From: Planctomycetota bacterium
Lineage (GTDB): Bacteria > Planctomycetota > Planctomycetia > Pirellulales > UBA1268
NCBI GenBank assembly: GCA_016872555.1
Contig: VGZO01000031.1
Coordinates: 1-51,346, forward strand
Direction of reading: 5' to 3'
DNA: 51,346 nt
Made by a program: the position numbers and the translations under genes. This document shows, piece after piece, positions 1-6,727 of the stretch; within the stretch, counting starts at the first letter, position 1, and every line of letters starts with the position of its first letter. Under the pieces are notes generated by a model that was not told where the DNA came from, did not search any database, and saw only the letters and a list, made by a program, of their open reading frames with translations.

Positions 1-162
1 AATTTTTTAGACGATGAGTTTTATCGGAACGCGTTTCCCACTGCACTGCTTGCAAGCGATCCGTATGATTTCGATCAATTGGAAAACGCATGGGAAAAGC
101 AGGAAATCACGCATCTTTCGCTCGAAGGGCGTGAGCTGCTTGCAGCCTTTAGGATTCAATAA
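1..162 (+). CDS. C-terminal fragment of an unrecognised cassette protein
   Basis: The reading frame is open from the first base of the window to a TAA at 160-162 and encodes the last 53 residues of a protein cut by the window edge. The visible part is acidic and Leu-rich and ends LLAAFRIQ. I do not recognise the family. Codon use is more AT-rich than in the sulfatase genes further right. An attC-like site starts about 20 nt after the stop, so this is probably the gene of the preceding integron cassette. The frame is clear but the function is unknown. Confidence 0.55.
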   Translation, partial: NFLDDEFYRNAFPTALLASDPYDFDQLENAWEKQEITHLSLEGRELLAAFRIQ

Positions 163-179
163 ATCCAAATAGACACACC

Positions 180-271
180 AAATAACAAGGCGTTGGACGC
201 GGAGCCGCCGATCGCGTCGTTCGTGGAGTCAATGTTGATTGGCGGCGGCCCGGTCAACGCGGCCGTTCGGC
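180..271 (+). other. attC-like integron recombination site 1
   Basis: An imperfect palindrome of about 92 bp lies between two cassette genes. The left half has ATAAC followed by CGTTGGACGCGG. The right half has CCGGTCAACG followed by GTTCGGC (265-271). CGTTG-G-AC-G-CGG pairs with CCGGTCAACG if two G bases are left unpaired, which is the extrahelical-base pattern of attC sites. The right half (CGGCCCGGTCAACG, then CGTT) matches the right halves of the sites near 3440, 5060 and 5550. The expected cleavage is G^TT at 265/266, so the next cassette starts at 266. The left simple site is degenerate. Confidence 0.6.
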
Positions 272-328
272 CCACAAAGGAATGAGAAGGCCGATGAACA
301 CGAGCAAACACAGAACCAAGGGATGCTC

Positions 329-3304
329 ATGATCAGTCGCGGTTCGGAATGGCACCGATGGGAGCCGCATATCCACGCGCCCGGCACGATCCTCAACAAT
401 CAGTTCGGTGCGACCGATCCCTGGGAGCCCTATCTGACGACGCTGGAAGGCCTAACGCCGAAGATAGAGGCGATCGGTGTCACCGACTACTACGTCACCG
501 ATACCTACCAGGAGTTCCTCAAGCATAAGGCCGCCGGCCGGTTGCCCGGCGTGATGCTGCTCTTCCCGAACATCGAACTGCGCCTGGATGTGGCCGCGAG
601 GTCCGGCTTCGTGAACGTCCACATGCTGGTCAGCCCCGAGGATCTCGACCACCTGTCCGAGGTGAAGCGCATCCTGAATCGACTGCAATTTCACGCGTTC
701 GACGATCGCTTCGACTGCTCACGCGAGGAGCTGATCAAGCTGGGCAAGCGTGCCGACCCGGCAATCACCGATGACGGCACCGCGCTCCGACACGGTGCGA
801 CGCAGTTCAAAGTCAACTTTGATCAACTGCGCAAGGTCATCGGCGAAAGCGAATGGGCGAAGAAGAACATCTTGATCGCCGTCGCTGGCGGCGCCGGGGA
901 TGGCACGTCTGGCATGCGCCAGGCCGCCGACGCCACCGTGCGTCAGGAAATCGAGAAGTTCGCCCACATCATCTTTTCGAGCAGTCCTGCACAGCGCGAA
1001 TTCTGGATCGGTCAGCGCAGCGCGACGGTGGAGGAGTTGCGCGCACGCTATGACGGGTGCAAGCCTTGTCTCCACGGCAGCGACTCCCATGACCAGCAAT
1101 CCGTAGGCCAGCCCGTCGAAGGTCGCTTGTCATGGATCAAGGGTGCCCTGGAGTTTGATGCTCTCCGTCAGGCATGCATCGATCCCGAAGGCCGCGCTTT
1201 CGTCTCCGAGCGGCCGCCACGTTCGGCCATGCCTTCGCAGGTCATTTCGCACGTCAGGATCAACGATGCGGATTGGGCCACCACGCCCGATATTCCTCTC
1301 AATCCCGGACTTGTTGCCATCATCGGCGCGCGCGGCTCGGGAAAGACGGCCCTGGTCGACGTGATCGCCGCAGGCTGCGACGCGATCAAGCCCGCCGGCT
1401 GGGATGCGGACGAGAACATCAGCCCATCTTTCCTGGCTCGAGCGCGCACGCTCATCGGGAGCGCGAAGGCGTCACTGACTTGGGACGACGGCGCCACGGT
1501 CACGCGCTCACTCGATGGCAGCGACGCCAACGATCCTACGGCGTTTCCGCGTGCCAGGTATCTGTCCCAGCAGTTCGTCGAGGAGCTCTGCTCGGCGAGG
1601 GGTGTCTCCGATGGCTTGGTCGACGAGATCGAGCGCGTGATCTTTGAATCACATTCACAGGACGATCGAGACGGGGCACTCGGTTTTGCCGAGCTGCGCG
1701 ACCAGCACACCTCACGGTTCCAGCAGGCGCGCGAGCGCGAAGCCGAGGCGATCTCCGACATCTCGGAACGCATCGCCACCGAGTTCGAGAAAGAGACCCT
1801 TGTCGCCAGCCTGGCAACGCAGGTCCGGCAGAAGACGAAGCTGATCGTGGACTACACGGCCGATCGTGCGAAGCTCGTCGTCAAGGGCACCGAAGCACAG
1901 GTGGCCCGACACACCCAGCTCAGCGAGGCGGCTCAGACGCTTCGCAATGAGATCCAGGCCTTCGGGAACCGGCGCCGCACCTTCGTCGCCCTGCAGGACG
2001 AAGTTCGCAGCATGCGCGCTACGCGAGCCCCGGAACTGCTCCGCCAAGCCCAAGAACGACATGGGAACAGCGGTTTGAACGCGCAGCAGTGGGACGAATT
2101 CCTGCTCATCTACAAGGGCGACGTAGACAAGAGCCTGGCGGCCTACATCAAGTGGGCGGATGGCGAAATCCGCAAGCTGACGGGCATTGCGCCTCCGACC
2201 GGCGATCCGAACGTCGCGCTGATCGCCGACGACGCGGATGTCTCGACGCTGCCGCTAGCGCCCATCGCTGCCGAAATGACTCGCCTCGAAACGTTGTTCA
2301 GCGCCGACAAGATCGTGCGCGATCAGTATGCAGCGCTGACCAGCCGCATCGCGCTAGAGAACTCGGCGCTGCAGGCCCTCAAAGTCCGGCTCACCGATGC
2401 GCAAGGCGCTGCAGCCCGCCGGAAGAACCTCCAGACAGAGCGCGAGGACACGTATGGCCGCGTTTTCGAGGCTATCACCAGCGAGCAGAACGCGCTGGCC
2501 GGTCTCTACGAGCCTCTGATGGCGCGGCTTGTAGCGTCATCGGGAACGCTCAAGAAGCTCAGCTTCTCGGTTCGCAGGATCGCCGACGTCCACACCTGGG
2601 GATCCTTTGCCGAGGAGGAACTTCTCGACCGGCGCAAGACTGGGCCCTTCTACGGCCGTGGCTCGCTGATTGGCGTCGCGAACGAGGCTCTCAAACCCGC
2701 GTGGGAAACGGGCTCGGCGGCCGACGCTCAGGCGGCCATGACAGCCTTCATGGCCAAGTACCTAAAGGACCTGCTGTCCCATGCGCCTTATGCACCAACG
2801 CAGCAGGCCGATTTTCGAGCCTGGTCGAAGCGGTTCGCGCACTGGATCTTCGGCACCGAACACATCACCGTCCGCTACGAGATATCCTACGACGGCGTCG
2901 ATATCCGCAACCTATCTCCCGGCACGCGAGGCATCGTCTTGCTACTGTTGTATCTCGCGCTGGATGATTCAGACGATCGGCCTCTGATCATCGACCAGCC
3001 CGAGGAGAACCTCGATCCAAAGTCTGTCTTCGACGAGCTGGTCTCGCTTTTCACAGCCGCGAAGGTGAAGCGCCAAGTCATCATAGTGACGCACAACGCC
3101 AATCTCGTCATCAACACCGACGCGGATCAGGTCATTGTTGCGGAAGCCGGCCCGCATCCGTCGGGTGGCCTGCCGCCGATCAGCTACAAGGCGGGCGGAT
3201 TGGAGAATGCGGGAATCCGCAAGGCCGTCTGCGACATCCTAGAGGGTGGCGAAGCCGCCTTCCGCGAGCGCGCGCGGCGCCTTCGCGTCCGTCTCGATCG
3301 CTAG
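329..3304 (+). CDS. PHP-domain and AAA/SMC-like ATPase, TrlF type (probable defence gene)
   Basis: The protein of about 991 aa has an N-terminal PHP-like part, with HIHAPGT at residues 14-20 and GVTDYY soon after. An ABC/SMC-type ATPase follows: Walker A GARGSGKT around 333-340, a long helical and probably coiled-coil middle, signature LSPGTRG around 862, Walker B LIIDQPEENLD around 889 and H-loop VTHNAN around 922. This layout matches proteins catalogued as TrlF-family AAA-like ATPases and is reminiscent of RloC-like restriction factors; a metal-dependent nuclease or phosphoesterase gated by the ATPase is an inference. The frame opens upstream at a TTG (239), but that lies inside attC site 1. 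ATG 329 has AAGGG six bases before it and leads directly into RGSEWHRW, so I prefer it over ATG 323. It is the sole gene of a 3.2-kb integron cassette. Confidence 0.85.
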   Translation: MISRGSEWHRWEPHIHAPGTILNNQFGATDPWEPYLTTLEGLTPKIEAIGVTDYYVTDTYQEFLKHKAAGRLPGVMLLFPNIELRLDVAARSGFVNVHMLVSPEDLDHLSEVKRILNRLQFHAFDDRFDCSREELIKLGKRADPAITDDGTALRHGATQFKVNFDQLRKVIGESEWAKKNILIAVAGGAGDGTSGMRQAADATVRQEIEKFAHIIFSSSPAQREFWIGQRSATVEELRARYDGCKPCLHGSDSHDQQSVGQPVEGRLSWIKGALEFDALRQACIDPEGRAFVSERPPRSAMPSQVISHVRINDADWATTPDIPLNPGLVAIIGARGSGKTALVDVIAAGCDAIKPAGWDADENISPSFLARARTLIGSAKASLTWDDGATVTRSLDGSDANDPTAFPRARYLSQQFVEELCSARGVSDGLVDEIERVIFESHSQDDRDGALGFAELRDQHTSRFQQAREREAEAISDISERIATEFEKETLVASLATQVRQKTKLIVDYTADRAKLVVKGTEAQVARHTQLSEAAQTLRNEIQAFGNRRRTFVALQDEVRSMRATRAPELLRQAQERHGNSGLNAQQWDEFLLIYKGDVDKSLAAYIKWADGEIRKLTGIAPPTGDPNVALIADDADVSTLPLAPIAAEMTRLETLFSADKIVRDQYAALTSRIALENSALQALKVRLTDAQGAAARRKNLQTEREDTYGRVFEAITSEQNALAGLYEPLMARLVASSGTLKKLSFSVRRIADVHTWGSFAEEELLDRRKTGPFYGRGSLIGVANEALKPAWETGSAADAQAAMTAFMAKYLKDLLSHAPYAPTQQADFRAWSKRFAHWIFGTEHITVRYEISYDGVDIRNLSPGTRGIVLLLLYLALDDSDDRPLIIDQPEENLDPKSVFDELVSLFTAAKVKRQVIIVTHNANLVINTDADQVIVAEAGPHPSGGLPPISYKAGGLENAGIRKAVCDILEGGEAAFRERARRLRVRLDR

Positions 3305-3402
3305 GTAATAGGTTGAGCAACGATGGCAGGCCCGTCCACAACTGCTACAGGTTCCCAACGCCCCCGAAGATCCGCATCTTGGATTCTCCGACTTGCCATG
3401 AG

Positions 3403-3466
3403 GCCTAACAACAGCATGCAGCGGACGGCCCGCTGCGCGGCCCGCCGCTGAACCGGAGCGTTAGGC
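3403..3466 (+). other. attC integron recombination site 2
   Basis: This is the clearest attC of the array. R'' GCCTAAC (3403-3409) and R' GTTAGGC (3460-3466) are perfect complements and both fit the RYYYAAC / GTTRRRY consensus. Between them CAGCGGACGG pairs with CCGCCGCTG with one base left over, as expected for L''/L' with an extrahelical base. The length is 64 bp. It lies 98 nt after the ATPase gene stop and 16 nt before the next start codon. Cleavage is expected at G3460^TT. Confidence 0.85.
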
Positions 3467-3482
3467 CGACTGCGTACACACC

Positions 3483-4952
3483 ATGAATCAGATACCTGAC
3501 TCATACGCCGATCCTGTTCCCGCGCCTGCACCCAACCGGACCGGCTGGCGGCGTGACGGGCCCCGCTTCGCGCTGGTGGCGTGGGTGATCGCGACCGTTG
3601 CGTTGGCAGCGACAGCGGCGGGCGCTGCGATCGTCGTTTCCGTCGTCGCCGCAGTGCGTGCGGCTCTCGGCGGGGAGAGTTCTCGCGATCGGCTCGGCGA
3701 GATCGCCCAGGAGGCGCTCAGGTCGGACGCCTTCGCGTGGATCACCGTGATCGCAACACAGGTGGCGCTACTCGCGTGCGCGTGGCTCGCCTGCCGCATC
3801 CTGCGAAGACCCGTGCACGAGCGGCTTGGCCTCCGCGCGACGGGCCTGGGTCCCGTGCAGGGAGCGGTGGTGCTGGTCGCTACCGTCGTTCCGTTCGCGC
3901 TGGGCCTGGCCGCGGCGTGGCTCGTAGAAAGCGCGATCGGTTCATCGAGCGACGACGCCCTCGGCCTGCAGCGGATGTGGAGCGAGGGCTCGCGCGGAGG
4001 GAGCGTGGCGTGGGTCCTGCTGATCGCGCTCCTGCCGGGATTCGTGGAGGAGGTCTTCTATCGCGGGTTCCTTCAGCGCGGACTGCTGTTGCGCTGGGGA
4101 GCTGCGGCGTCGATCCTCACGAGCAGCGTGCTGTTCGCCGTCAGCCACGGCGAGTTGGCGTGGGCGGCGGCCATCTTTCCTCTCGGCGTGTGGCTCGGCG
4201 TCGTCGCGTGGCGCACCGGCTCGGTGCTGATGACCTTCGCCATACACGCGAGCGTCAACGGCCTGTGGACGGCGGGCATGATGATCCTGCACCGCGAGCC
4301 GGCGAGCGAGCAGGCATTGAACGAGATCGCCATCGCTCTGCTCGCGGTCAGCGTGATCGCGTTCCCGTGGGCGATCGCCATCCTGCGTCGGCAGCCTGCG
4401 GCCGCGACGAGCGTGGTTACGCGGCGGCCGATGTGGCTTCTTCAGCGAGTCGCCGGCGTGGGGATTGTGGCAGGGGCGTTCCTCTTCTTGCTCGTGCCGC
4501 CTGGAGCTCTGCCGATGTCACCCGAGCAGGCGGCAACGCAGCCCGTGCCCACGCTCGGCGAACTCGAGGCGAGCGCCGTCGAAGACGCGACCTGCGCAGC
4601 CGCGGGCGACAATGGCGCGGTCGAGTTTTTCCTTATGCCCGGCGTCGGCACCCGCGTCGCGCTGCCGAAGAACCGCGTCGGCATCGACGAGGTGATCGTC
4701 ACGCTCGACGCCGCAGGCGAGACCGTCTGGCTCGCCTACGCCGGCGAGCGCAGTGGCAAAGGGGGCAAGCGCCGTCCTGTGGGCATCGTCGAGCAGCTCG
4801 CCTCGGGCGACCCGACCGTGCTTCGCATGACGCTCACGCAGGGGCCGCCGCCGGTGACGGTGCGCTTGACGCTCGAGGAGGACGAAGCGATGAAGATCGC
4901 CGCGTTCGCGCAGGCTGAAGCCGAAGGCTGGGCCATGCGCGGACGGAAGTAG
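3483..4952 (+). CDS. CPBP-family intramembrane metalloprotease (cassette gene)
   Basis: A 489-aa membrane protein. Several hydrophobic helices run from about residue 28 to 330. The CPBP/Abi signature is complete: EExxxR at 189-194 (VEEVFYRG), His222 in AVSHGEL and HxxxN at 255-259 (HASVN). These residues form the metal site of Rce1-like type II CAAX-prenyl endopeptidase relatives. A soluble C-terminal tail of roughly 130 residues follows the last helix and is not part of the usual family core; I cannot name it. Start ATG 3483 lies 16 nt after attC site 2, and the next attC follows the stop by 70 nt, so the gene fills a 1.6-kb cassette. Family members serve in bacteriocin self-immunity and protein processing; the substrate here is unknown. 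Confidence 0.85.
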   Translation: MNQIPDSYADPVPAPAPNRTGWRRDGPRFALVAWVIATVALAATAAGAAIVVSVVAAVRAALGGESSRDRLGEIAQEALRSDAFAWITVIATQVALLACAWLACRILRRPVHERLGLRATGLGPVQGAVVLVATVVPFALGLAAAWLVESAIGSSSDDALGLQRMWSEGSRGGSVAWVLLIALLPGFVEEVFYRGFLQRGLLLRWGAAASILTSSVLFAVSHGELAWAAAIFPLGVWLGVVAWRTGSVLMTFAIHASVNGLWTAGMMILHREPASEQALNEIAIALLAVSVIAFPWAIAILRRQPAAATSVVTRRPMWLLQRVAGVGIVAGAFLFLLVPPGALPMSPEQAATQPVPTLGELEASAVEDATCAAAGDNGAVEFFLMPGVGTRVALPKNRVGIDEVIVTLDAAGETVWLAYAGERSGKGGKRRPVGIVEQLASGDPTVLRMTLTQGPPPVTVRLTLEEDEAMKIAAFAQAEAEGWAMRGRK

Positions 4953-5022
4953 GCCATCAGGAGTGGACGACGCCTTGGCTCAAGCACGTTTGTCATCGCA
5001 AGAAGGATCGACACCGAGATGC

Positions 5023-5086
5023 GCCTAACAACCGGTTGCAGCGGCCGGTCCGCTGCGCGGCCCGCCGCTGAACCGGAGCGTTCGCC
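5023..5086 (+). other. attC integron recombination site 3
   Basis: 64 bp, nearly the same sequence as attC site 2 through the central region (CCGCTGCGCGGCCCGCCGC shared). R'' is GCCTAAC (5023-5029) and R' is GTTCGCC (5080-5086). In the circular form of the CPBP cassette the right site would be G plus TTAGGC (from 3461), a perfect complement of this R''. That is strong support for a real excisable cassette between 3461 and 5080. Confidence 0.82.
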
Positions 5087-5107
5087 CCGCTACATTCGTT
5101 GTTTAAC

Positions 5108-5461
5108 ATGACGCCAAGCAAGATACTGTTCGCGTTGTTGGTTTCCACAGTCATCGGTTTATCCGGGTTTGCTCTCTTGCTTCAAAGAAGGAGGGCAAAG
5201 CTTGCCAATAAAAACATTTACGGCACTGGACTTGATCGAAAAGAATGGACTCTTCTCCAACAGGCTGTGCTTTGCGCGGGGGAATGCCCCGATTTTCCAT
5301 CTAGATCATTTGATTCTCTTCCACAGAATCTCAAGAGTCATGCGGTCGGCCAGATTGTTGCACGTTGTCTAGCAAATGAGCCAAATGTCGATTTGGAGGA
5401 TGCAGCAAAGCTGATGGTTGGCGGACAACAGAATGCATGGCTCGCCCTAAGTAAGTCGTAA
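5108..5461 (+). CDS. Small membrane-anchored protein of unknown function (cassette gene)
   Basis: A 117-aa protein with an N-terminal membrane helix (about residues 6-25) followed by basic RRR and a soluble part of about 90 residues with two Cys (LCAGECPD). No family recognised. ATG 5108 is chosen because it precedes the helix cleanly; a TTG three codons upstream is possible. There is no clear ribosome-binding site, as is usual for cassette genes. The DNA is clearly AT-richer than the chromosome to the right, in line with recent acquisition. It lies between attC sites 3 and 4 in a 489-bp cassette. Confidence 0.6.
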   Translation: MTPSKILFALLVSTVIGLSGFALLLQRRRAKLANKNIYGTGLDRKEWTLLQQAVLCAGECPDFPSRSFDSLPQNLKSHAVGQIVARCLANEPNVDLEDAAKLMVGGQQNAWLALSKS

Positions 5462-5483
5462 GGGAGCAACTACGGAAATCAGG

Positions 5484-5575
5484 GGATAACAAACCGTTGC
5501 ACACGGAGCCGCGGGCCGAGCGGTTTCTGAAGTCAAAGTTGGTTGACCGCGGCCCGGTTAACCGTGACGTTCGGA
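5484..5575 (+). other. attC-like integron recombination site 4
   Basis: About 92 bp. The left half (ATAACAAACCGTTGCACACGG then AGCCGCGG) closely resembles the left half of site 1. The right half (CCGCGGCCCGGTTAACCGTGAC then GTTCGGA, 5569-5575) resembles the other right halves. AGCCGCGG pairs with CCGCGGCC. The left simple site GGATAAC fits the consensus poorly, so the site may be weaker than 2 and 3. Confidence 0.6.
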
Positions 5576-5588
5576 GGCGGCACACGCT

Positions 5589-5801
5589 ATGAGCGAAGAA
5601 CGGTCAGAGTCTCGACGCAGAGTGCCACCCATCTTGTGGCTTGTTGTTGCGCTTCCCGTGCTGCTTGTTCTTCCACTCGGAATTGCGGCAGGCGAGCATT
5701 GCATTCGTGGCAGCGATCATTTCGAGGATCTTCTGCGTCGTGTTGGAGTTCACGACACACGTGATCGTGTGTATCGGCCGGTTATAGATCTGTTCCAATG
5801 A
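5589..5801 (+). CDS. Small membrane protein of unknown function (last cassette gene)
   Basis: A 70-aa protein with one hydrophobic helix (about residues 14-33, PILWLVVALPVLLVLPLG) and a short polar tail. No family recognised. A GGAGG at 5573-5577, formed partly by the R' end of attC site 4, stands 11 nt before ATG 5589. The stop codon TGA (5799-5801) is embedded in TGATAAC, which could be the left simple site of a further, decayed attC. Confidence 0.5.
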   Translation: MSEERSESRRRVPPILWLVVALPVLLVLPLGIAAGEHCIRGSDHFEDLLRRVGVHDTRDRVYRPVIDLFQ

Positions 5802-5893
5802 TAACGCGGCCTAATAGGACTACGTTAGCGGAGCTTGTGCCGGATCGGTGTCGTCGTCATGCTCGGTGGCATGAAGCGGGTGTAACGTTCTTT
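5799..5893 (+). other. Possible degenerate attC site 5, end of cassette array
   Basis: TGATAAC at 5799-5805 and GTTCTTT at 5887-5893 are 95 bp apart, the same size as sites 1 and 4, but I could not pair convincing internal arms. It would mark the distal end of the array. Weak call. Confidence 0.25.
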
Positions 5894-5906
5894 CTGTAAA
5901 TCTGGC

Positions 5907-5953
5907 TGTGGGCCTGCCCGTAGCGAGCGTAGCGAGCTGAGGGCAGGCCCACA
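5907..5953. repeat. Perfect 13-bp stem-loop at the array/transposon junction
   Basis: TGTGGGCCTGCCC (5907-5919) pairs perfectly with GGGCAGGCCCACA (5941-5953) around a 21-nt loop that contains the doubled unit TAGCGAGCG/TAGCGAGC. There is no T-tract. It may be a transcription barrier at the end of the cassette array or part of the transposon edge. Confidence 0.5.
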
Positions 5954-5973
5954 CCCGGGCCACAAGTTGAAGA

Positions 5974-6040
5974 GGTGGGTCATCGAGGCTTTCTTGGAAG
6001 TGCTAACTCACCAAGAAAGGGAAACCTGCGATGACCCACC
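5974..6040. repeat. Long two-part palindrome overlapping the transposase start
   Basis: GGTGGGTCATCG (5974-5985) pairs with CGATGACCCACC (6029-6040), and inside it CTTTCTTGG (5989-5997) pairs with CCAAGAAAG (6011-6019). Both arms are perfect. The right outer arm contains the ATG (6031) of the transposase remnant, so in RNA the structure would bury the start region. This could be a natural brake on transposase translation or the terminal repeat of the element. Confidence 0.5.
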
Positions 6041-6510
6041 AAGAAGGTATTGGATCGACGTGTGCCGACCTCAATGCACTGGTGATCGAGTTGGGCCCCG
6101 CGGCCATCGCCGAAGTCTTCGCCACGCTCATGAACCACGCCATGCAGATCGAGCGAGAGCAGACCCCATGGCCGAGTCTCGTGGCGTGCCCGATCGTCGA
6201 GGCTACGCCAACGGATTCAAACCCGAGTCGCTCAAGACCCGGGTCGGGGACGTGCATCTCCGTATTCCGCAGACCCGCGGCTACCACGACGACCGGGGCC
6301 GACCCTTCTATCCTCGGTCGCTGGAGCGGGGAGTCCGCAGCGAGCGGGCGATGACCCTCGCCATCGCCGAGATGGATGTCCAGGGCGTCAGTGCCAGGAC
6401 GGTGACCAAGATCGTCGAGGAGCTGTGCGGGCTCGATATCACGTCTACCCAGGTCAGCCGAGCTGCCGCAAAGCTCGACGAGCAGCTTGCCGCCTGGCGG
6501 AGTAGCGCGT
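6031..6510 (+). pseudogene. IS256/Mutator-family transposase remnant, frameshifted and truncated
   Basis: Residues in one frame from ATG 6031 (ELGPAAIAEVFATLMNHAM) continue in another frame after about 6160 as RGYANGFKPESLKTRVG, then FYPRSLERGVRSERAM and ELCGLDITSTQVSRAAAKL. This is the typical N-terminal third of an IS256-type transposase. The reading frame shifts near 6160 and the homology stops abruptly around 6500 after EEQLAAW-like residues, before any catalytic DDE core. The element is therefore dead. Its position directly after the cassette array suggests it marked or caused the boundary between mobile and chromosomal DNA. Confidence 0.75.
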
Positions 6511-6645
6511 TACGACTCGATCACCGTTCTCGCCGATATCGACACCTCCCGTGTCCTGGACGTCGCTTCGGAGCGAATCCGGGCTGCCGCCGAAGCGGTT
6601 TTGCAGACTCGCGGCATGGCGGCCCACTCAACGGCCACAACGTGA
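6511..6645 (+). pseudogene. Second transposase fragment (ISL3-like)
   Basis: A 44-codon stretch in frame from TAC 6511 to TGA 6643-6645 reads YDSITVLADIDTSRVLDVAS, then AAAEAVLQT. The pattern of a strand, an acidic residue, then RVLDV and a helix resembles the start of the DDE domain of ISL3-family transposases. It has no start codon and is cut at both ends. It joins the IS256 remnant directly, so one element probably inserted into or recombined with the other. Confidence 0.45.
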
Positions 6646-6727
6646 CTGTTGCCGGCGTGCACGCTGGCGGCGGCCGGGGTGGGCGGTGACAATCCTCCCG
6701 GGCGTCGTCTCTCCGGGGGGCCGTGTC

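Follow-up and report, generated by a model that had tools for sequence, protein, structure and literature searches.

The stretch of DNA analysed here (the window, 51,346 nucleotides) makes up the entire contig C31, one of 162 in the draft genome (4.47 Mb, contamination estimate 3.2%) of a Planctomycetota bacterium, and all the genomes compared with it are likewise fragmented draft assemblies of uncultured organisms. Its left end carries the following features, in which R1 denotes the attC covariance model described below.

1-162, + strand: 3' part of a cassette gene truncated at the contig edge (53 aa); matched no Pfam or NCBIfam family at E < 0.1
180-271, + strand: attC site 1; R1 64.9 bits, E 1e-16
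323-3304, + strand: cassette gene whose 993-aa product is a TrlF-family AAA-like ATPase with a putative role in defence; NF045780 695.8 bits, cut-off 350
3403-3466, + strand: attC site 2, with some mismatches in the outer stem; R1 40.2 bits
3483-4952, + strand: cassette gene for a CPBP/Rce1-like intramembrane protease, 489 aa; PF02517 62 bits; closure GTTAGGC/GCCTAAC
5023-5086, + strand: attC site 3; R1 45.7 bits
5108-5461, + strand: cassette gene; small product, hydrophobic at the N-terminus, that matched no family
5484-5575, + strand: attC site 4; R1 46.6 bits
5589-5801, + strand: last ORF, small hydrophobic protein; no attC after it
5967-6689, + strand: Mutator-family (IS256-like) transposase remnant, right end of the insertion; PF00872 72 bits
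6857-8278, + strand: sulfatase gene forming the conserved right flank; its neighbour in congeners is a PDZ gene, which in the source genome lies on C89

The first-pass annotation had described five single-gene units on one strand. All do lie on the + strand, but the first unit is incomplete, since the window is a whole contig whose edge cuts the gene, and the cassette status of the last is unproven because no attC follows its ORF (none was found after 5575 down to 6400, even with filters off); this last unit is either a truncated cassette or not a cassette. Part of the adjoining stretch 5893-6720 is 81% alike to sequence at C118.

attC sites, closure and cassette contents

Recognition of attC sites relied on R1, which was built from 38 aligned sites in relatives' arrays lying beside integrase genes in the same taxonomic family and contains zero window sequence. 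An arm-pairing scanner served only to seed this model and was not used alone as evidence, because its combined scores reached 30-38 in shuffled sequence. R1 matches all four sites that had been called attC-like (40.2-64.9 bits), the next best match in the 51 kb being a partial one of 12.6 bits, and genome-wide it yields 12 matches above 40 bits (five on C37, four on C31, two on C65 and one, of 58.2 bits, on C101), with the remainder at or below 20.3 bits. The sites have the conserved cores and paired, bulged arms of attC, and their stems covary (278 two-sided changes vs 70 in shuffles, over 77 distinct sites that had been pre-selected or model-fitted by pairing). Matches are found in 53 of the 72 family genomes. 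An Rfam scan returned zero matches.

Neighbouring attC sites of a genuine array each contribute an end to a single circle (the right end of the first, the left end of the second), and these two ends should be complementary. Such closure was exact at all four variable positions in 38 of 59 consecutive attC pairs, vs 7% at random, and the within-site pairs used as a control displayed no such complementarity. In the window, where cassettes close into circles between R' of one site and R'' of the next, the CPBP cassette closes at 4/4 positions, exactly as the first-pass annotation had stated (GCCTAAC with GTTAGGC), the TrlF cassette at 3/4 and the third cassette at 2/4. The attC model, closure, a genomic integrase and an empty-site comparison (the last two presented below) concur, and we regard the window array with high confidence as a genuine integron cassette array in a planctomycete chromosome, as had been proposed. 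What had been named as evidence to the contrary did not materialize: the sites are scored, an integrase is present in the genome, and the occurrence of TrlF without these palindromes in relatives is not contradictory, since it means that TrlF also exists outside integrons and nothing more.

The product of the largest cassette scores well above the cut-off of the TrlF family, and its role in defence is putative. Identity with the anti-phage protein Ppl was rejected (NF042955, 119 bits vs a cut-off of 1000). Matches to PDB sequences are weak and restricted to the ATPase part, so that the PHP-like character of the N-terminus is read from motifs by eye. Only one of the 72 family genomes has the gene; in a phylum-wide sample of 392 genomes it occurs in 40 at E 1e-60, and 25 of these exceed the family cut-off. 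Among 30 TrlF loci tested, one other, in the distant planctomycete G388, is flanked by attC (1351-1426 and 4280-4343 of L165, with the TrlF-family gene at 1450-4260) with exact closure (GTTCGAC/GTCGAAC). This is apparently an independent capture of the same family, so that TrlF has probably become a cassette on two or more occasions. Cassette products otherwise comprise the CPBP protease and two small hydrophobic proteins in the window, and a DUF4303 protein and a glycosyltransferase on other platforms.

The integrase and the attI leaders

A single full-length integron integrase was detected in the genome, at 1075-2175 of C101 (TIGR02249, 443.7 bits; cut-off 265). It is an IntI-family tyrosine recombinase with the IntI-specific region, and its best solved relative, with which it aligns end to end, is V. 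cholerae IntI4 (2a3v). Its nearest relatives among named records are from uncultured Planctomycetaceae and other planctomycete genomes, several of them apparently lake-derived as judged from isolate names, and the source organism is apparently a freshwater planctomycete. Above the cut-off, intI is present in 27 of the 72 family genomes. On C101, intI, attI, one membrane-protein cassette, attC and the contig end follow each other on one strand. Most other family genomes also have intI and array on the same strand, whereas two (G050 and G045; L080 and L082) have the classical layout with intI divergent from the array. In another (L066, contig G017:C6), at least 13 attC follow intI, and a second, partial intI with an attC cluster lies at the opposite end of the same 405-kb contig. 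Integrases 47-59% identical to that of C101 were also seen in drafts assigned to other phyla, including Anaerolineales, Acidobacteria and Azonexus (L112, L116-L120, L123 and L124), hinting at either cross-phylum relatives or binning error.

The attI sites were searched by closure, the R'' of the first attC predicting the R' of attI. Exact partners were found at the head of the arrays on C101 (GTTCTGT), C37 (GTTCGCA) and C65 (GTTCGGC, with a further exact match more upstream), each with a conserved core like TTATACGGACCGTATAAATACAA in front. Upstream of the C101 attI there is a promoter-like TTGCCG-18-TATACT, and TATACT-like boxes occur in other leaders. A leader model (R2), made from six intI-linked leaders only, matches C89 (65 bits), C37 (53 bits) and, weakly, C65 (27.9 bits); similarity to the leader that follows intI on C101, and to stretches upstream of the C37 and C65 arrays, is seen at the right end of C89. 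The source genome hence has four leader copies, one of them with intI. Several relatives have two to six leaders each and intI at most once per genome (four leaders in G014, three in G023, five in G024, six in G025, four in G029 and five in G030), and no intI was detected in the leader-bearing genomes G023, G021 and G026. The leader at 8480-8590 of L187 (C89) and leaders in A3 also display an extended inverted repeat (about GTTAACGCACCGGCG ... CGCCGGTGCGTTAAC on C89) that encloses some 75-100 variable bases and is recognisable in leaders from two genera.

Are the arrays without integrase dead relics, i.e. CALINs in the usual sense, left by duplicated integrons that lost intI and in which exchange has ended? 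We consider this unlikely, although parts of it fit. Remnants of intI lie beside two leaders of G014 (L221 and L224) and a truncated intI beside L245 (G025), which shows that some platforms were formerly complete integrons, and in the window closure of cassette 3 is imperfect and the stem of site 2 mismatched. However, among the 24 integrase-less leaders that are followed by attC within the retrieved sequence, a set that includes C37, C65, the weakly scored L249 (29.5 bits), L247 (23.8 bits) and L243 (21.7 bits) as well as L221 and L224, which have intI remnants but no intact intI beside them, attI closes exactly with the first attC in 18 and at 3/4 positions in four, whereas 9.5% would close at 4/4 at random. 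Upstream of most of these leaders no intI-like sequence was found in the 344 to 2,600 bases examined (344 to 690 for a few, at contig ends). Moreover, species have platforms in common but differ in their cassettes, and cassettes are common to different platforms. Sister platforms with upstream flanks 91-98% identical carry different first cassettes (L226/L235, L229/L228 and L242/L243), while the same first cassette is found on different platforms (L222/L225, 100% identity; L230/L248, 97%), with one such pair spanning genera. Finally, L243 corresponds to L242 plus one cassette of ~535 bases at attI, as read from the sequence of the junction, the cassette that both share being 98.8% identical (BLAST).

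Where the window array probably sits

In the congeneric loci L174, L175 and L176, the counterpart of the window's sulfatase gene adjoins the PDZ gene, with no attC between them, and a large sulfatase/PhoD-like gene, which defines the empty site. Both neighbours, the PDZ gene and the large sulfatase/PhoD-like gene (1,015 aa), are on C89 in the source genome, and past the PDZ gene the right end of C89 consists of the attI-like leader without intI. As the gene adjoining the sulfatase in congeners is on a contig that ends in such a leader, the array is probably located between the PDZ gene (C89) and the sulfatase gene (C31), the simplest arrangement of the sequences probably being C89 leader, cassettes, C31. 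The leader of C89 and the array of the window are not found together on any contig, and no overlap of contig ends joins the window to C101, C37 or C89; it is through synteny only that the C89 leader is assigned to this array as its attI. Its GTTAGGC does not close with the AAATAAC of site 1, and therefore at least one intervening cassette is missing or decayed. A near-identical stretch of ~21 bases (GTGCACGC[C/T]GGCGGCGGCCG) occurs at both inferred ends of the insertion (about 8050-8080 of L187 and about 6640-6670 of the window), and could be a target duplication or a chance resemblance in GC-rich sequence.

As the first-pass annotation had noted, no integrase is visible in the window: C31 has its four attC, and the array continues past the contig edge at position 1. 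The expected position of intI, immediately to the left, is probably wrong, since the inferred left neighbour is C89, where no intI was found in the stretch examined upstream of the leader, and intI is on C101. It is nevertheless conceivable that the window array forms the far portion of one ordinary integron starting at the C101 intI, with an assembly break between, for C101 ends within a cassette, the window starts within one, and the strand logic agrees. This is improbable in view of the gene that adjoins the window's right flank in three congeners, which is on C89 with a leader of its own and no intI, of the exit R' of C101 (GTTCGGG), which does not close with AAATAAC, and of C37 and C65, which are additional separate arrays each with its own attI. 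Very improbable is a binning error that brought in array contigs from another organism: the draft's 162 contigs and contamination estimate would allow for it, but the gene adjoining the window array is 87-91% identical and the C89 genes are 75-88% identical to their congeneric orthologues, and the multi-leader pattern is found again in several genomes. The notion that terminators, REP-like repeats or other unrelated palindromes account for the sites, GC-rich intergenic hairpins though these are, is refuted by the independent covariance model, by conserved AAC/GTT cores and bulged G, by obedience to the closure rule, and by an integrase encoded in a genome that has no such sites elsewhere.

A probable multi-platform integron with one integrase

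We consider it likely that this genome has a multi-platform integron in which one integrase serves all arrays in trans. What is directly observed comprises the attC sites and their closure, the gene for the integrase, the copies of the leader, the empty site and the between-species cassette differences; the C89-C31 join, the action in trans, the use of the promoters and defence by TrlF are inferred. Positions 1-5575 would be the far end of a cassette run that starts at the C89 leader, with no integrase beside it, and is inserted between the PDZ and sulfatase genes; the genome would hold at least four platforms (C101, C89, C37 and C65) for its one detected integrase. The latter would excise cassettes as circles at attC, in the form of a folded single strand, and these could be inserted at any attI, including those of the integrase-less platforms. 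The promoter-like sequence of C101 and the TATACT-like boxes of the other leaders may drive the first cassettes. If several attI platforms are indeed loaded by one integrase, each gives a separate first-cassette position near a promoter.

The existence of several attI platforms with one integrase has good comparative support. We lean slightly towards the broader proposal that freshwater planctomycetes of this family have a polycentric integron, in which one integrase acts in trans on several attI platforms with their own promoters and cassettes are shuffled between distant sites, and that some of the CALINs known elsewhere may be platforms of this kind, having escaped recognition since attI is not searched for. 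To our knowledge, attI detection by IntegronFinder is limited to class 1. If one integrase does load several platforms, many CALINs would need re-reading. The closure rule offers a simple attI search in any lineage. A survey of open-access titles returned none relevant to duplicated or orphan attI.

Planctomycetes are among the listed integron hosts (PMC2426708) and a planctomycete-specific attC model exists (PMC8352920). Like sedentary chromosomal integrons, those of planctomycetes among them, the source genome has an IntI-family integrase, attI, attC sites with R''/R' ends and a bulged stem, and single-gene cassettes in one orientation with taxon-specific attC. However, integrons typically have one attI close to the integrase (PMC9024848), whereas here several separate attI-headed arrays, each with its own loading site, accompany one detected integrase gene apparently common to them, which departs from the usual description. 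The window resembles a CALIN, an integrase-free cluster of attC sites (PMC9024848; PMC8618304), in that its contig lacks intI. The identification of CALINs makes no use of attI, because descriptions of this site are poor beyond class 1 (PMC9024848); the integrase-less arrays differ from them in being headed by an attI leader that closes with the first attC. The atypical Treponema integron has genes oriented as the integrase gene (PMC3607928), like the arrangement of intI and the following array on C101 and in most relatives, but passages on it mention one integron per genome, unlike the several platforms found here. Integron cassettes have also been viewed as phage-defence libraries (Darracq, Kieffer and Getz 2025, as cited in PMC12444791). 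The window likewise has a putative defence gene as a cassette, although the TrlF cassette is a 3-kb single gene and its defence role is putative.
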